From Methanoculleus chikugoensis (GTDB taxonomy: Archaea; Halobacteriota; Methanomicrobia; Methanomicrobiales; Methanoculleaceae): a DNA stretch of 53,842 nt. Under the pieces are notes generated by a model that did not search any database, was not told where the DNA came from, and saw only the letters and a program-made list of their open reading frames with translations. Made by a program: the position numbers and the translations under genes. Numbering within the stretch: position 1 is the stretch's first letter; every line of letters starts with the position of its first letter. Shown here piece by piece: positions 10,388 through 28,144 of the stretch. Location of the stretch: positions 1-53,842 of the forward strand of contig NZ_FMID01000021.1 in NCBI RefSeq assembly GCF_900095385.1, read 5' to 3'.

Positions 10388-10443
10388 GGATCGGACAAAG
10401 GCTATATACCCGCCCTTCCCATCCCGCGGCGGGAGACTCGTCC

Positions 10444-11367
10444 ATGGATACCCGTGCCCTCCGCGACTTCATCCGGCTCGGCCGGTTCCCCTTCCTCCTC
10501 TCGGGTTTTATCCCGTTCACCGCCGGGGCGCTCCTCGCGTCTCTCCTCGGGGCGCGGTTCACCCCGGCGCAGTTTCTCGTCGGTTACGCGGCGATGGCCG
10601 CGGCGCACCTCTCCGTCCACTACAGCAACGACTACTTCGATACCGACGCCGACCGGTTCGTCGAGACGACCCCGATATCCGGGGGGAGCGGCGTCCTCGC
10701 CGTCAACCCCGGCCTGAAGCCCGCCGCGTTCCGGGCAGCGGTCGTCCTGATGGCGGTCTCGATCCTGATCGGGTACCTCTTCGTGACCGTCTATGACTAC
10801 CCGTTTGTCTTCCTCGTCTTCGGTGTAGCGGGGAACCTGCTCGGCTGGTTCTACACGGCCCCGCCGATTGCGCTTGCCTACCGTAACCTCGGCGAAGTCA
10901 CGAACATGATCACCTTCGGCCTCCTGATGCCGGGGGCGGGCTACTTTGTCGCGATGGGAACGCTGGATGCCGCCTTCTTCGCGTTCGCCGTCCCGCTCTC
11001 CCTCTACGGGCTCGTCTTCATCACGAGCGTTGAGATCCCCGACCGGGAAGGCGACATCGCCGGGGAGAAGCGGACGCTCATCGTCCGAAGAGGCCGGATC
11101 TTCGGTTTTTCGCTCATCGCCCTCGCGGCGTCCCTCGCGACCGCGGCGCTCGCCGTCTTCGCCCTCACCGGCTTCTTCGCACCCGTGGATTTCCGGCCGG
11201 TGGCGCTCTTCTCTCTTATCCCGCTCGGGATTGCTCTGTGGGGCTTCTCGAACCGGTGCACCGAACGAGCACCCGCCCTCCGGTATGCCACCGCGAATAT
11301 CGTGGGCTACTTCCTCTTCCAGGGGCTTGTTGTCCTCTATTTTATCCTCGCGGCCTCTCGTGCCTGA
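10444..11367 (+). CDS. UbiA-family prenyltransferase (MenA-like)
   Basis: A 307-residue polytopic enzyme transferring an isoprenyl chain to a head group. Motif 1 is SNDYFDTDAD (61-70). Motif 2 is EIPDREGD, followed by AGEKRTL. FIRLGRFPFLLSGFIPFTAG matches the N-terminal helix of MenA-like and archaeal homologues. It starts at ATG 10444, 57 bases after the RNase III-like gene. Its 3' end overlaps the convergent LEA-type lipoprotein gene by 31 bases. Substrate is undetermined; menaquinone is not expected in this group of methanogens. Confidence 0.85.
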   Translation: MDTRALRDFIRLGRFPFLLSGFIPFTAGALLASLLGARFTPAQFLVGYAAMAAAHLSVHYSNDYFDTDADRFVETTPISGGSGVLAVNPGLKPAAFRAAVVLMAVSILIGYLFVTVYDYPFVFLVFGVAGNLLGWFYTAPPIALAYRNLGEVTNMITFGLLMPGAGYFVAMGTLDAAFFAFAVPLSLYGLVFITSVEIPDREGDIAGEKRTLIVRRGRIFGFSLIALAASLATAALAVFALTGFFAPVDFRPVALFSLIPLGIALWGFSNRCTERAPALRYATANIVGYFLFQGLVVLYFILAASRA

Positions 11368-11855
11368 CCCGGCCGAACCTCCACCGTCCGGTCGAAGGGG
11401 ACCTCGAAGGTCGTAATGCCGAAGTCGAGGACCCCCGACCCCGTCACCCGGAGCGTGACCTCCCCGTCCGCGAGACCCCGGAGGAGCCCCTGCACCAGCC
11501 GCAGGTTATCGACGGTCACCGGGATGGAGACTGCCGTCTCGGCGTTGGGCTGGATCGCAAACCCTCCCCGCTCCCCGTGTGCGAGGAAGACCCATCGTCC
11601 GCCGTCGATAAAGTAGACATCGAACGAGACCCGGGTTAGGGTGGCACCGATGGGGTTGGGGTTGTCGATGATGAAGTGGGGCAAGAGATCGGTGCTCCCC
11701 GGGGTGATGTTCTCTATCCCGACCCCGCTGAGGGTGATGGTCGGCTCCTGGAGCGCGGGAGCCATACAACCGGCGCTGCAGAGCAGGACGGCGATAAGGA
11801 GGGTGACGGCGGTGCGCCGTATCCCCCCTGCCGGGATAGAGGTCTGCCGCGACAT
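11337..11855 (-). CDS. LEA14/WHy-domain lipoprotein
   Basis: A 172-residue protein. An N-terminal signal with lipobox LLCSAGC (C30) predicts a membrane-anchored lipoprotein. The rest is a single late-embryogenesis-abundant type 2 beta-sandwich, with the IDNPNPIGATLTRVSFDVYF motif and a second strand set near AVSIPVTVDNLRLV. Archaeal members are common and of unknown role, possibly stress or envelope related. Eleven bases upstream ends the DUF2341 gene on the same strand, suggesting one transcript for two surface proteins. Confidence 0.85.
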   Translation of the reverse strand: MSRQTSIPAGGIRRTAVTLLIAVLLCSAGCMAPALQEPTITLSGVGIENITPGSTDLLPHFIIDNPNPIGATLTRVSFDVYFIDGGRWVFLAHGERGGFAIQPNAETAVSIPVTVDNLRLVQGLLRGLADGEVTLRVTGSGVLDFGITTFEVPFDRTVEVRPGQAREAARIK

Positions 11856-16965: not shown

Positions 16966-17073
16966 CGTTCCCGTAACTGCTGTTGGATCTAAAAGACGAT
17001 AACGGTGTACGTTGCAACCCCGGCAACCGGATGGCGAACGCTTTTCGTCCCGGGCGCCGAGCTACCGTACCGG

Positions 17074-17904
17074 ATGAAGCACGTCACGAAGGCAGACGGC
17101 GGGCGGCAGCCGTTTGACCCACAGAAGGTGCAGCGGACGCTCCGGAAGATGGGCGTCGGCGCGGAGGACGCCGAACGGATCGCCGACGAAATCGAGGAGT
17201 CGGTGCCGGACGGGGTGAGGACCGCCGCGGTTCTCCGGATGATCCGCGCCCGGGCAAAGGCCGTCCGCCCTGCCGTCAGCCACCGGACGAACCTCCGGAG
17301 AGCGCTCGGCCTTCTGCGCTCGAAACCGGACTTCGAGGAGTTCGTGCGGGTTCTCCTCCGTGAGCACGGCTATCGGGTCGAGACCGGATGCGTGCTCGCC
17401 GGCCGGTGCGGGGAGCACGAGGTGGACGCCGTCGCAGAGAAGGACGGCACCACCATCTTTGTCGAGGTGAAGCACCACGTGAGCCACCACCGGGTGACCG
17501 GGCTCGACGAAGGCCGGATCGCCCGGGCTATCATCGAGGACCTCCAGGACGGGTTCCGGTCGGGACGGTGCGTCGTTGCGATCGACGGCGCCCTGATCGT
17601 CTGCAACACCAAACTCTCGGAGCACGCGAAGCGCTACGCCACCTGCCGGGGGATCGGGCATATCGGGTGGGACTACCCGGAGGAGCGGAACCTCCGGACG
17701 ATGATCGAGGAGACGCAGTCCTACCCGATCACGATCGTCGCCGGGGTGAGCCGGTCGGTCTCCACCAGGCTCGCCGCCGCTGGGGTCGTCACGGCAAAGC
17801 AGATCGCCTACGGCGACGCTACGACCATCGCCCACGACGCGGAGATCCCTCTCAAGGAGGTGCTGCTGATCGCCGGGCGGGCTCGTGCCATCCTTGAGGT
17901 GTGA
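17074..17904 (+). CDS. ATP-cone / Mrr-like nuclease / HhH fusion protein
   Basis: A 276-residue, three-part protein. Residues 1-60 form an ATP-cone nucleotide sensor (VTKADGGRQPFDPQKVQRTL, then AVLRMIRARAK). Residues ~85-200 form a restriction-endonuclease-like domain with the PD-(D/E)xK triad D118, E131 and K133 (EHEVDAVA, IFVEVKHH). Residues ~217-275 form a helix-hairpin-helix-like tail (ITIVAGVSRSVSTRLAAAGV). ATG 17074 is taken; the frame extends 23 codons upstream without protein-like sequence. No methyltransferase is adjacent, so it is not an ordinary restriction system. Nucleotide-gated DNA cleavage or repair is inferred. Confidence 0.8.
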   Translation: MKHVTKADGGRQPFDPQKVQRTLRKMGVGAEDAERIADEIEESVPDGVRTAAVLRMIRARAKAVRPAVSHRTNLRRALGLLRSKPDFEEFVRVLLREHGYRVETGCVLAGRCGEHEVDAVAEKDGTTIFVEVKHHVSHHRVTGLDEGRIARAIIEDLQDGFRSGRCVVAIDGALIVCNTKLSEHAKRYATCRGIGHIGWDYPEERNLRTMIEETQSYPITIVAGVSRSVSTRLAAAGVVTAKQIAYGDATTIAHDAEIPLKEVLLIAGRARAILEV

Positions 17905-20158: not shown

Positions 20159-20917
20159 TTAGATGTCGTGGATTCTGATCCTGTACTCTTTGATGACGAG
20201 GTTATTGACATTCTCCCGTTTGTATCTGTTGTCCGCGGTCTTCTGCATCCCGACCGAACTGCCGGTCAGGTAGTTCTCCCATGCGACCGAGTAGTTACCC
20301 GACGAACCGCTCGTATACTCCACCGTCACATTATCTCCAGGCGCAACCGGTATCGATTGCGTATCCGAACCCTCCAGGCTCATTCTCACCGTCGCCATCC
20401 CGGACTTCGCCATCAACGTGTCGGTGGTGATGTTCATGATGTAGATGACGAACGTATCCGTGGCGTTGTCGTAGAACCACCGCGGCTCGGCAAGCATCGC
20501 CGACCCTGTCGCCCCATCCTGGCGTATCATCACCGCGCCGTTCTCCAGGGTGGTCACCCCGGTGCCCCGGTCGGACCGGTAGGTCAGTGCGCCTACGGTG
20601 TAGTTCTTCTGGAACGCAGGAGTGCCGTTCGTGACGTTGATGAAGCAGCCGTACTCGGTGGCGTTGATCACCTCGAACGTCCCGCCGCTCACCTGCAGCG
20701 ATGTCTCCTTGTAGGGCACATTCTTGAAGCAGAGGCTCTTCATGTCGTTCTGGATGACGATCATCGCCCGCTCCATGTTCTTCACGTCGGTGTTGCTCTG
20801 CTCCTTGACGAGCACCGGGTAGCCGTAGAGCGTGACGAGCCCGATGCCGCTGATGACGATCCCGAGGATCAGGACGAACCCGACCGCCTCCGATACCGCC
20901 TTCTCATTCATCTTCAC
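20159..20917 (-). CDS. Type IV pilin-like protein (DUF7289-like)
   Basis: A 252-residue protein, last gene of a six-gene operon. The N-terminus MKMNEKAVSEAVGFVLILGI resembles archaeal class III (prepilin) signals: a short charged leader, glutamate a few residues into the hydrophobic helix, then a single span. The external part is beta-rich with several N-glycosylation sequons (NVTNGT, NYTVG, NATDT, NITTD, NYSVA). It most resembles the haloarchaeal DUF7289 pilin-like family. It starts 13 bases after the preceding gene. A pilus subunit or pseudopilin role is inferred. Confidence 0.7.
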   Translation of the reverse strand: MKMNEKAVSEAVGFVLILGIVISGIGLVTLYGYPVLVKEQSNTDVKNMERAMIVIQNDMKSLCFKNVPYKETSLQVSGGTFEVINATEYGCFINVTNGTPAFQKNYTVGALTYRSDRGTGVTTLENGAVMIRQDGATGSAMLAEPRWFYDNATDTFVIYIMNITTDTLMAKSGMATVRMSLEGSDTQSIPVAPGDNVTVEYTSGSSGNYSVAWENYLTGSSVGMQKTADNRYKRENVNNLVIKEYRIRIHDI

Positions 20918-20929
20918 GGTTATCTCCTC

Positions 20930-21376
20930 CTAAACCCCGCTTGAGTCATAGTGGATCATGTTCCATCCCGCGCCGGTGGTGTTGCCGGTCACACCCCTCG
21001 TCGCTCCGATGCCGGCGATGGCGATCTTGCTCTGAATGCCGCCGCCCTGCACCTGGATCACCTGGCTTGCGCCCGTCATGCCTGCACTCACGAAGTAGTC
21101 CGCCCCGGCCACGTCGTCGGGGATGTCGAACTTCGTCGCTACCGTCCCGTTGCCGGGCGCAATCACGTAGAGGTCGACGATCCGGGTGCTGACCCCGTTC
21201 CCGATATCCACGAAGGCGTGATAGCGGAGGTTGTTTGCCGGCCCCTCCATGAAGACGGTGTTGACGGTGAAGATCATGACGACCATCAGGAGGAGGAGCA
21301 CGCCGCTGACGATGACGTACTCCATCAGCCGCGAGACGCCCTCCTCGTTCGGCGGCTCAGTAATACACGTTCTCAT
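20930..21376 (-). CDS. Pilin-like single-span protein (DUF7266-like)
   Basis: A 148-residue protein. The leader TEPPNEEGVSRLMEYVIVSG is followed by one hydrophobic helix (VLLLLMVVMIFTVNTVF) and an external domain, AFVDIGNGVSTRIVDLYVIA, typical of DUF7266-like archaeal pilin-like proteins. The start overlaps the end of the upstream gene by 20 bases, so translation is coupled. Whether a prepilin peptidase processes it cannot be decided from sequence; the charged leader before the helix is compatible. Confidence 0.65.
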   Translation of the reverse strand: MRTCITEPPNEEGVSRLMEYVIVSGVLLLLMVVMIFTVNTVFMEGPANNLRYHAFVDIGNGVSTRIVDLYVIAPGNGTVATKFDIPDDVAGADYFVSAGMTGASQVIQVQGGGIQSKIAIAGIGATRGVTGNTTGAGWNMIHYDSSGV

Positions 21377-21740
21377 TGTACTCCGTCACCCCGTTGTAGT
21401 AGTGGATGGTTACCGGGTGCAGGTAGTGGCCGGAGACCTCCACCTGCGATTCAACCGAGAAGTTGACCACGGCATTCTTTCTCTCAAGCGATATCGCGAC
21501 GATGTCCTGGCGAACCGCCCCGGTGGTGAGGTTGTTGGCCCCGCCGAATGTATCGACGTAGTCGAACACCGCCTCCCGCAGATCCCGGATGTCGTTCTTC
21601 GGGAACTCGAGCACCCCTTCCGCGGTCGTCTGCCCGACGAGCACCGACTGATTGATGATCAGCGCGAGGAAGAAGAGCCCCACGGCGACGAGAAGCCCCA
21701 TCAGGACGATCCACTGGCCGTCTTCGTTCATGCACGCCAT
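21357..21740 (-). CDS. Pilin-like single-span protein (DUF7261-like)
   Basis: A 127-residue protein. MACMNEDGQWIVLMGLLVAV begins with a short acidic leader and one hydrophobic helix. A small external domain follows, with FPKNDIRDLREAVFDYVDTF and a C-terminal beta hairpin ending ENVYY. GGAGGT six bases ahead of ATG 21740 fixes the start. It overlaps the preceding gene by 13 bases. Resemblance is to the DUF7261-like proteins found with other pilin-like genes in haloarchaea (family recall, not tested). Confidence 0.65.
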   Translation of the reverse strand: MACMNEDGQWIVLMGLLVAVGLFFLALIINQSVLVGQTTAEGVLEFPKNDIRDLREAVFDYVDTFGGANNLTTGAVRQDIVAISLERKNAVVNFSVESQVEVSGHYLHPVTIHYYNGVTEYNENVYY

Positions 21741-22237
21741 AACAGCACCTCCACGAGGACGGCCTGGGAGCGATTTTCGATGCTTACCCCTGGTAAAACC
21801 GCAGGTCTCTCTGAGAGTTGGACCCACCGCGTCACCCGCACGGCGGATTCCCTCCCCGTCCAGGTGTTGTCGGCTCCAACAAACTGGTACTCTCCAACGC
21901 TGTCGCCGGAACGGTAGGTGACGCTTGCGCTCATGTGCAGGTCATCGGTATCGCCTGCCGTCATGTTGCAGTAGTCCAAGAATGCGGCCCTGAAGCCGTC
22001 GGAGTTATTATCGGCGATGAATCTCTCCAGATCGCTCTTATCGTCATCTTTGGCGTTGGGCGTATCCATCATCGCGAGGACGTCGCTCCCGAGCTGCTCG
22101 AGTTGCATGTCCGGGATGTGCGTATCGCCGGGGGTGTAGATGCTCGTCGTGCTGATGACGATGTACGCGGTGAGGAGCATGATGAGCCCGGCCGCGACAC
22201 CCTCCATCGTGTAGAGCTGACCTCCATCGTTCACCAT
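21728..22237 (-). CDS. Pilin-like single-span protein (DUF7288-like)
   Basis: A 169-residue protein. MVNDGGQLYTMEGVAAGLIM, then LLTAYIVIST, has the leader-plus-helix layout with a glutamate at the start of the hydrophobic stretch. The external domain carries IPDMQLEQLGSDVLAMMDT and ends in a strand EVLLWRA. It overlaps the upstream gene by 7 bases and the downstream gene by 13. The shared N-terminal plan (xDxGQ, then hydrophobic helix) across the operon suggests these proteins pack into one filament or complex. Confidence 0.65.
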   Translation of the reverse strand: MVNDGGQLYTMEGVAAGLIMLLTAYIVISTTSIYTPGDTHIPDMQLEQLGSDVLAMMDTPNAKDDDKSDLERFIADNNSDGFRAAFLDYCNMTAGDTDDLHMSASVTYRSGDSVGEYQFVGADNTWTGRESAVRVTRWVQLSERPAVLPGVSIENRSQAVLVEVLLWRA

Positions 22238-23259
22238 ATCGCCACCTCCAGGACAGCGGGCTTCAGGGGGGGGCAGGTGACGTTATCGTAGTCATACAGG
22301 TACGTGCCGTTCATGAATGTTCTCTGTGGCACGCCGTCGTCGAAGGTGAACCGGATATCCAGGATGCTGTTCTGGTCCAGGGTGAAGATCGAGGTGGCCG
22401 CCGGTTTCAGCACCAGGGAGATGTTGTCGGAGACGTTGGTCCCCGGCACGAGATCGTTTTGAGTCCGATCGAGGAAGAGGGTGTAGAGGTCAGGATCCAT
22501 TGTGTTATAGGAGAATGGGATCTTGGTGAACCGCGGCATCGGCGTCGTCGGATCCATCTTCCAGAACGTCACGTCCTTGAGCGTCGCATTCGTGGCCGCT
22601 GCGGTCCCGTTCAGATACCTGCCGAATTCGGTGATCGTGATGTTCACCGGCTCGGTTCTCGGGTCGATCCGGTAGGCCGGGCCTCGTTCCGGGTCCAGCA
22701 GCTGGCTGAAGTTCAGCCGGACGGTGAAGACCCGTGGTTTCGAAGCGTCGAGCGCGGTCTCGTTGAAACTGCTGTTGTAACTGATATTCGCCACCCCCGG
22801 CTCCTTGATCTTCACCGCCCGGCGGATGTAGCCGTGGCCGGAAGGTGGAGTGCCGCCGGTTGCATTATTGTACGTCCAGTCCTCGCTCCGGAGCGAAAAG
22901 TTGTACGAGTAGGGGACATCGCCGAAGATCGCCTTGCTGCGGTAGTCGTCCTCGGTGAAGAAGGTGTAGTTGAAGAAGGCGTTAACCTTCGTCGAGAGGA
23001 GGATGTTCGGCGTATCCTTCGAGACTGCGAGCCCCATCCGATCGATCTCGTCCTTATACGCCTCGGTCTTCATCTCCCACGGCGGGTAGACCGGCCAGCC
23101 GGGATCCTCGGCGAGGATCACCCCTGTCCTGTAGGCGACCGCGTCGTAGTCGATGCCGCTGCTCTCGAGACCCGCAAGCAGCCCCGGAACCATGCTCACC
23201 ACCATGATCAGGGCGAGCATGAAGATCGTGAACCCCGCGAGGAAGTCAAGCGACATCAC
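22231..23259 (-). CDS. Large pilin-like protein (DUF7287-like)
   Basis: A 342-residue protein, the largest in the operon. A GTG-ATG start (23259/23256) gives a very short leader, then SLDFLAGFTIFMLALIMVVS, the single hydrophobic helix. The external part is long, beta-rich and holds many N-glycosylation sequons (NYTFF, NFSLR, NATGG, NISYN, NITIT, NGTAA). It may be the tip or adhesive subunit. It begins 17 bases after the lipoprotein stop. Family assignment is by N-terminal resemblance only. Confidence 0.65.
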   Translation of the reverse strand: MMSLDFLAGFTIFMLALIMVVSMVPGLLAGLESSGIDYDAVAYRTGVILAEDPGWPVYPPWEMKTEAYKDEIDRMGLAVSKDTPNILLSTKVNAFFNYTFFTEDDYRSKAIFGDVPYSYNFSLRSEDWTYNNATGGTPPSGHGYIRRAVKIKEPGVANISYNSSFNETALDASKPRVFTVRLNFSQLLDPERGPAYRIDPRTEPVNITITEFGRYLNGTAAATNATLKDVTFWKMDPTTPMPRFTKIPFSYNTMDPDLYTLFLDRTQNDLVPGTNVSDNISLVLKPAATSIFTLDQNSILDIRFTFDDGVPQRTFMNGTYLYDYDNVTCPPLKPAVLEVAIW

Positions 23260-23276
23260 GCCGTCGTCGGTCGTCC

Positions 23277-23840
23277 TTATACGATCACCTCCCCGGTATC
23301 CGCCCGGAACGCGAGGCTCTCCATCCCCGCGTCCGAACGGATGTTGATGGTGTAGACCCCCTCCGCGAGCACGATATCGACCGTGCTCGCATCGAGGCGC
23401 ACCATTGCCGGCCGGATCACGTCTCCCTGCGCCGCGAGGAGGTCCTCCGGGGAGAGGATCCCGGTCATATTCACCTCGTCATCGGGCAGGGGAGCAGGAA
23501 GCGAGGTCTCTCTCCAGCCCGTGATACCGGAGGTCAGCCAGCGCACCTCTTCGCCGTCCTTAAGGCCGATGGCCCAGGCGGCTGCCCGGCCGTCGAGGGT
23601 AACGCGGTTCCCGAGCACCTGGTGCATCGAGGTGCCGGTGATGTTCAGGCCGCCTTCGACACTGAGGATATCGAGTTCCGCGAGAGCTTCGGTGAGGGTA
23701 TAGCCCTCCGGCTCCGGCAGATCGATGGGTGTGATGCCGCCGCTCGACTGCGGCGGCGAGGATGTGTCGAGACAGCCACACGCGGTGCAGAGGATACAGG
23801 CTGCGGCAAGCAGGGCTAGAACTCCCCCGGGAACTCTCAT
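23277..23840 (-). CDS. Lipoprotein, first gene of the pilin-like operon
   Basis: A 187-residue exported protein. The signal ends in a cysteine cluster (LCTACGCLD) with several possible lipid-attachment cysteines. A proline-rich linker (SSPPQSSGGITPIDLPEPEG) leads to a small alpha/beta domain with a C-terminal beta set (STVDIVLAEGVYTINI). Leading the pilin-like operon, it may anchor or scaffold the filament at the membrane. The promoter TATA lies 27-35 bp upstream. No named family is recognised. Confidence 0.7.
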   Translation of the reverse strand: MRVPGGVLALLAAACILCTACGCLDTSSPPQSSGGITPIDLPEPEGYTLTEALAELDILSVEGGLNITGTSMHQVLGNRVTLDGRAAAWAIGLKDGEEVRWLTSGITGWRETSLPAPLPDDEVNMTGILSPEDLLAAQGDVIRPAMVRLDASTVDIVLAEGVYTINIRSDAGMESLAFRADTGEVIV

Positions 23841-23866
23841 GTAAAGCAGTCATTATACCCGAGGGC

Positions 23867-23875
23867 ATATAAATA
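23867..23875 (-). promoter_or_regulatory. TATA box of the pilin-like operon
   Basis: TATTTATAT on the minus strand lies 27-35 bp ahead of the lipoprotein ATG (23840), so the operon mRNA is leaderless or nearly so. It is the only strong promoter element visible for the six genes. Confidence 0.55.
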
Positions 23876-24041
23876 ACTACCACTCTTGTACTTTCAATGA
23901 TTTGCCCATGAATCGAGATATTGGAAACGTGCAGACGGCCTAATGCAAAATTATTTCATCCTCCACATCGATCCGTCCGACGGGGCGGTTCCACCCGTAT
24001 ATCACCGGCGATCCGGGCCGCGGGCTCCGGCGCGCCATCGT

Positions 24042-27515: not shown

Positions 27516-27845
27516 CTACTCACTGATCCCGGAGAGGATCTGACGTTTCAGTTCCGGCAGATCGTGCTCGACCACATTCCAGACTGCATCGCGGTCGATG
27601 CCAAAATAGTGGTGAACAAGGACATTCCTCATCCCGATGATATCCGACCATGGGATTTCTGGATTTTCGGCCCTGAACTCTGAAGAGATTCCCCTTACGG
27701 TTTCCCCGATGATCTGAAGGTGGTGAATCACCCATACCTGTGCCATTTCGTCATCGTAGAAGTACTTGCGTCCTCTGGAAGATATCCTCTCAATCCGTTC
27801 GATGGCCTCGATAACATCCAGCAGCCGTTCACGATCGTCTCTCAT
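27516..27845 (-). CDS. hepT: HepT-like HEPN toxin (DUF86)
   Basis: A 109-residue all-helical HEPN protein. The catalytic Rx4HxY motif is intact: R73, H78, Y80 (RNVLVHHY). HEPN toxins of this class cut RNA, or are held inactive when the partner MNT enzyme adds AMP to the tyrosine. The gene overlaps the antitoxin by 4 bases downstream of it, the usual order. Spread by horizontal transfer is common in archaea. Confidence 0.9.
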
Positions 27846-28144
27846 AAAGGCCGGGCTTCCTGTAAGACCCTTGATCGAATACGCTCCCGGAGTCCCGCTT
27901 CCGTCACCACGTCAACCTGGCGCCCGAGCAGGAGCGAGAGGTCCACCGCAAGGCCGCCCACGTCAAGGAGACTCCGGTCGGGATCGAGGTCGATCAGAAT
28001 ATCGATATCGCTGTCTTCCCGGGCTTCGTTCCGTGCCACGGATCCGAATACCCGCACGTTCTTTGCTCCCCTCCGGTGCGCGAGAGATAGGATCTCATCC
28101 CGCTTCTGGGCGAGAAGGGTGTAGATGTCGGCTCCCGGGTTCAT
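27842..28144 (-). CDS. mntA: MntA-like nucleotidyltransferase antitoxin
   Basis: A 100-residue minimal nucleotidyltransferase. The motif [19 protein letters not shown] gives G34-S35 and the metal-binding D46 and D48 at the expected spacing. It neutralises the HEPN toxin by AMPylation in studied pairs. It is the first gene of the two-gene unit, with ATGA overlap to hepT. An A/T-rich segment (CACAATAAATG, ~28168-28178) upstream may be its promoter. Confidence 0.9.

Follow-up and report, generated by a model that had tools for sequence, protein, structure and literature searches.

Organisation of the six-gene operon

The window, a stretch of 53,842 nucleotides of Methanoculleus chikugoensis DNA, carries on the minus strand six co-directional genes (23840-20159), each abutting or overlapping the next and led by a lipoprotein gene, in agreement with the preliminary description. 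A TATA box (TTATTTATATG; 23866..23876, minus strand), which is near-invariant in 14 Methanoculleus-type loci, lies about 31 nt upstream of the first start codon, and the operon mRNA is probably near-leaderless. The first gene (23277..23840, minus strand) encodes the lipoprotein of 187 amino acids, whose lipid-attachment Cys at residue 23 is conserved and whose gene is kept throughout the Methanomicrobiales. The lipoprotein matched no Pfam family, and its profile gave zero matches among the proteins sampled from other lineages.

The five genes that follow, all on the minus strand, encode prepilin-like proteins: DUF7287 (22231..23280), DUF7288 (21728..22237; 169 aa), a DUF7261-like prepilin (21357..21740; 127 aa), a DUF7266-like prepilin (20930..21376, with the start corrected to 21376; 148 aa) and DUF7289 (20159..20917; 252 aa), the last with the class III signal peptide EKA/VSEAVGF. 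DUF7289, DUF7288 and DUF7287 score 87.6, 41.0 and 30.8 bits, respectively, all above the Pfam cut-offs of 27. DUF7261 (15.8 bits against a cut-off of 27) and DUF7266 (18.6 against 27.6) stay below theirs and were assigned by synteny and iterated profiles built here, with 43-77% identity to the syntenic homologues and, for DUF7266, with support from the alignment. The five family names given in the preliminary description are thus retained, two of them in spite of sub-threshold scores. The Pfam profile of PilA-type pilins (Pilin_N) matched none of the cassette genes, and the five DUF names were found in no paper of the literature searched.

For DUF7287 the AUA codon at 23280 is the probable start, which gives the leader RTTDDG, since the genus conserves a Shine-Dalgarno sequence, a leader in frame and indels of whole codons ahead of the GTG/ATG, and since a relative (L071) carries ATG where the AUA stands. 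The protein measures 349 aa from the AUA and 342 aa from the GTG at 23259. The AUA (23278-23280, minus strand) overlaps the UAA stop of the lipoprotein gene and is kept in most Methanoculleus-type loci.

The DUF7287 and DUF7288 genes overlap by exactly 7 nt in 48 of 51 loci, and those of DUF7288 and DUF7261 by 13 nt in 55 of 56. In comparison with three relatives, dN/dS lies at 0.15-0.52 for all six genes, DUF7266 being the best conserved cassette member; such values in every gene, taken with the near-invariant TATA box, indicate one functional operon.

Two other features of the window were recognised by eye, an ORF (17005-17904, plus strand) resembling an ATP-cone domain fused to an Mrr-like nuclease domain and two small overlapping genes (27516-28144, minus strand) resembling a HEPN/nucleotidyltransferase toxin-antitoxin pair.

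Distribution of the cassette and its relation to PilB4 loci

DUF7288 was detected above the cut-off in 91 of the 120 Methanomicrobiales genomes and in 190 of the 295 genomes of the phylum, 194 of the 295 having a match to it. Gene neighbourhoods within the order were examined at 13 further and 71 named loci (Methanoculleus, Methanoregula, Methanocalculus, Methanofollis, Methanolinea and others), some of them incomplete owing to contig ends or gene-calling misses. Most follow the order lipoprotein-7287-7288-7261-7266-7289, and none of the 71 named loci shows a match to an ATPase, TadC or peptidase gene. Outside the Methanomicrobiales the five pilin genes occur in unchanged order, while the lipoprotein gene is absent from the cassette loci sampled. 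The five-pilin core set in fixed order is thus common to haloarchaea (f13, f17, f21, f23, f29), Methanosarcina-like (f8), Archaeoglobus-like (f9) and Methanomicrobiales genomes, the lineage labels of the families, including a Methanocella-like one (f14), having been inferred from the size, base content and gene content of the genomes. The recurring gene order, together with the dN/dS values, the conserved TATA box and the conserved overlaps, shows that the arrangement is not due to chance. In one genome (G101; L034:4781-14277) two five-pilin cassettes stand in tandem, each adjoining the gene of a very large surface protein.

The statement in the preliminary description that haloarchaeal sets of this kind usually have a secretion ATPase and TadC nearby was borne out by five haloarchaeal loci (L038, L045, L046, L047, L049), in which PilB and TadC directly precede the pilins, four of them (L038, L046, L047, L049) having these pilin families in unchanged order. 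Two loci of other lineages, L057 and L062, also have a PilB/TadC pair adjoining the cassette. It is already known that euryarchaeal type IV pilus systems may have multi-pilin sets of their own, as at the PilB4 locus, and that pilins may be encoded apart from the ATPase and TadC genes (Makarova et al. 2016, PMC4858521). The PilB4 locus of Haloferax volcanii (PMC4858521, Fig. 4B) likewise combines a multi-pilin set with clade-2 PilB/TadC, and in the haloarchaeal loci sampled here these families, in unchanged order, come right after TadC and a PilB of large size (up to 1359 aa). The Methanomicrobiales differ from the PilB4 locus in having the motor genes at another place in the genome and a lipoprotein gene at the head of the operon. 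The cassette is therefore a variant of described pilus systems and not a new class of filament; the hint at an undescribed kind of filament in the preliminary description is not supported, multi-pilin sets and separate motors being on record and the set itself being widespread in the phylum.

Candidate motors encoded elsewhere in the genome

A motor within the window or nearby was rejected, as no match to PF00437 was found on its contig (C13) and no motor match in the 71 loci. The PF00437 matches of the genome are confined to contigs C37, C41, C47 and C68, in keeping with the earlier view that no assembly ATPase is close by and that the motor lies elsewhere or is shared. The search for VirB11/TadC genes suggested in that description returned four pairs of a T2SSE ATPase (PilB/FlaI) and FlaJ/TadC, and one A24 prepilin peptidase was found, so that peptidase, PilB ATPase and TadC platform are all present in the genome. 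C68 is the archaellum locus. On C41 an ATPase with two separate TadC genes adjoins the sole A24 peptidase found, and the peptidase adjoins this motor in both G000 and G034. The C37 motor has two pilin genes directly downstream and two PilA-type pilin genes upstream (L018:4397-5665, 10411-11693) and therefore probably serves a pilin set of its own. The C47 motor stands alone, with no pilins (L020:3586-8934); its neighbours are two KaiC/FlaH-like ATPase genes and an A-type ATP synthase operon.

TadC types were classified across the same 120 genomes and compared with the presence of the cassette, 98 good genomes being counted. The C41 type occurs in all 78 good cassette-bearing genomes, 16 of which have C41 alone, with neither C47 nor C37. 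C47 was rejected as the sole motor, being present in 55 of the 78 and missing from 23, and C37 was rejected because it is found in only 35 (missing from 43) and has its own pilins. Three genera (g18, g26, g30) lack both the cassette and C41, two further genera lack the cassette only, and no genus has the cassette without C41. By genus, the association of the cassette with C41 gives a Fisher p of about 0.0025, the count by genus being the sole correction for phylogeny and the co-losses sitting in three genera. The ATPases of this kind in G034, a finished genome in a single contig from the same genus, are limited to FlaI, C41 and one of PINc type. Five good genomes keep C41 in the absence of the cassette, hence C41 is not dedicated to it. 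By co-occurrence and elimination, C41 is the best-supported candidate for the cassette motor, with a genomic profile that would also allow FlaI, and this assignment offers a testable motor proposal for the Methanomicrobiales.

The choice of C41 as the best BLAST match to haloarchaeal PilB4 was not upheld, as haloarchaeal PilB4 branches apart in a quick tree that carried long-branch warnings. In the same quick tree C41 groups with the Methanosarcina-like (f8) motors and the pilin-linked motor of L057 with C47, C41 being separate from the pilin-linked ATPases of haloarchaea. This splitting of the pilin-linked motors indicates that motors have been exchanged over evolution. It also lends some substance to the alternative that the cassette has no fixed motor and is assembled by whichever clade-2 PilB/TadC the cell has (C41, C47 or C37), the pilin-linked ATPases falling on different branches (the haloarchaeal PilB4 type, and a C47-like type in L057 by the quick tree and in L062 by BLAST only) and ATPase/TadC modules having been argued to swap pilin sets (Makarova et al., PMC4858521). 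An interchangeable motor is nevertheless unlikely in view of the constancy of C41 and the frequent absence of C47 and C37 among the cassette genomes, and of two good genomes, G069 and G117, in which C47 is present while C41 and the cassette are both absent.

The adhesion pili of Haloferax volcanii (PilA/PilB3) provide a further comparison. There, too, PilB/PilC are encoded apart from the pilins, and the C41 ATPase has a weak PilB3_C match above the cut-off and a PilB3_N match below it; the cassette genes differ in not being PilA-type by Pfam.

Leaders, structure models and the probable role at the pilus tip

Among the five leaders of the window, only that of DUF7289 (EKA/VSEAVG) has a basic residue ahead of the cleavage site; in the other four a G precedes the hydrophobic helix, and position -2 is occupied by D, E or G where K/R would be expected. 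Most homologues outside the Methanomicrobiales carry K/R before the site, and the residues just past the predicted cleavage site are near-invariant and family-specific. The prepilin-peptidase sites, whose testing the preliminary description proposed, give a mixed picture, with support from DUF7289 and from most homologues outside the order and not from the other four leaders of the window, and processing of the cassette leaders by the peptidase is likely, though not secure, as judged from the sequences.

The AlphaFold model of DUF7289 (pLDDT 91) has a helix of 60 residues (5-64) followed by strands forming a beta domain, and that of DUF7287 (pLDDT 90) has helices at 3-29 and 37-50, followed mostly by strands in a beta-sandwich; in both models a long N-terminal helix is joined to a beta-rich domain, as in archaeal type IV pilins. 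Sequence searches of the PDB with the DUF7289 and DUF7287 profiles gave no significant match. In structure searches the DUF7289 model had no match above Z 2.5, residues 150-310 of DUF7287 reached Z up to 5.8 against beta-sandwich domains, and no GspH/I/J/K-type minor pilin (e.g. GspK) was among the matches listed for either model; a Z of 5.8 is in the range of common arrangements and therefore no functional claim is attached to it. The weak class III signals in four of the five window proteins would be accounted for if these proteins were simply held at the surface by ordinary signal anchors, neither processed by the peptidase nor forming a filament. Such an explanation is very improbable, as it fits poorly with the near-invariant residues past the cleavage site, the basic residues in most homologues outside the order, the PilB/TadC genes adjoining the haloarchaeal sets and the long N-terminal helix and beta domain of the DUF7289 model.

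DUF7261 (QWIVLMG) has no acidic residue near +5, and its first eight positions are without one across the Methanomicrobiales. Archaeal pilins often lack that acidic residue, for which reason its absence, while fitting a capping subunit, is suggestive only. The capping pilin subunit is expected to be without it (PMC10191384).

In relatives, adhesion modules are grafted on differing members of the set: VWA and PKD on DUF7266 (L057, L060), VWA on DUF7266 (L058) or on DUF7261 (L055), Ig on DUF7261 (L041), and PKD, DUF2341 and LamG on DUF7287 (L103). In the Archaeoglobus-like genomes DUF7266 with VWA/PKD reaches 790-960 aa, and in other genomes DUF7261 reaches 758-907 aa. DUF2341 is a domain of PilY-type tip adhesins (Makarova et al. 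2016, PMC4858521), and adhesive domains are known to be grafted on pilins, with a minor-pilin tip complex starting assembly (PMC10191384). The grafting on differing members favours a tip or priming complex over shaft subunits. A probably haloarchaeal protein of 2267 aa (L043:1024-7827), with a DUF7289-profile match and CARDB repeats, was also observed adjoining a cassette.

Bacterial minor-pilin tips (PilHIJK/GspHIJK; PilABC of Streptococcus sanguinis) similarly consist of several distinct single-copy pilins, some of them bearing grafted adhesion modules (VWA, lectin-like), which for the cassette are seen in relatives. They differ in having three or four subunits against five, the searches made here gave no relation to them in sequence or fold, and in the cassette the member that bears the graft varies from lineage to lineage.

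A self-contained short filament or pseudopilus, with DUF7266 or DUF7261 as the bulk subunit, the other four pilins as minor subunits and C41 acting in trans, would have parallels in the Com and T2SS pseudopilus systems, also with five pilins, one major and four minor (PMC10191384, Table 1), and in the PilB4 system, which has its own predicted major pilin (Makarova et al., PMC4858521); DUF7266, best conserved and small, would be a suitable candidate. We consider this arrangement rather doubtful, since the cassette pilins are single-copy, where archaeal major pilins usually come as tandem duplicates, since DUF7266 and DUF7261 at the lengths given above are unlikely shaft subunits, and since other, PilA-type pilins exist in the genome.

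The explanation that we favour, with moderate confidence, is that the cassette encodes, on its own, minor pilins (tip/priming) of a euryarchaeal type IV pilus and depends in trans on the C41 motor. The A24 peptidase on C41 would trim the five leaders, and the trimmed subunits would come together within the membrane as a complex that initiates the pilus and caps it, with the large ectodomains (that of DUF7287 in the Methanomicrobiales) exposed at the tip. Extrusion would be driven by the C41-type PilB ATPase and its two TadC proteins, the bulk of the filament would be made of PilA-type (Pilin_N) pilins encoded elsewhere, and the lipoprotein may be an order-specific, membrane-anchored assembly helper. 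New with respect to the described systems are the fixed stand-alone form that the cassette has across an entire order, the lipoprotein that accompanies it, the assignment of C41 as its motor, the disappearance of basic residues from the leaders and the shifting of adhesion modules from one subunit to another.

Surface or cell adhesion is the likely role, and DNA uptake is a possible one. The latter is considered because natural transformation of Methanoculleus thermophilus, a species of the same genus, needs a type IV-like pilus, as cited in PMC10133366 from Fonseca et al. 2020. The more specific proposal, distinctly improbable in our estimate, is that the transformation pilus of Methanoculleus and its relatives has the cassette as its DNA-binding tip complex, with C41 in trans, and that phylum-wide the cassette is a common chassis for adhesion modules at differing subunits. 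The five pilins are candidate tip proteins for archaeal adhesion and natural transformation.

Pilins of the PilA type (Pilin_N) were seen elsewhere in the genome near the loci examined. A second ATPase-less pilin cluster, on contig C32 of the same genome (L022:6688-9669), comprises DUF7289 and two Pilin_N pilins, one of which carries two PKD domains.
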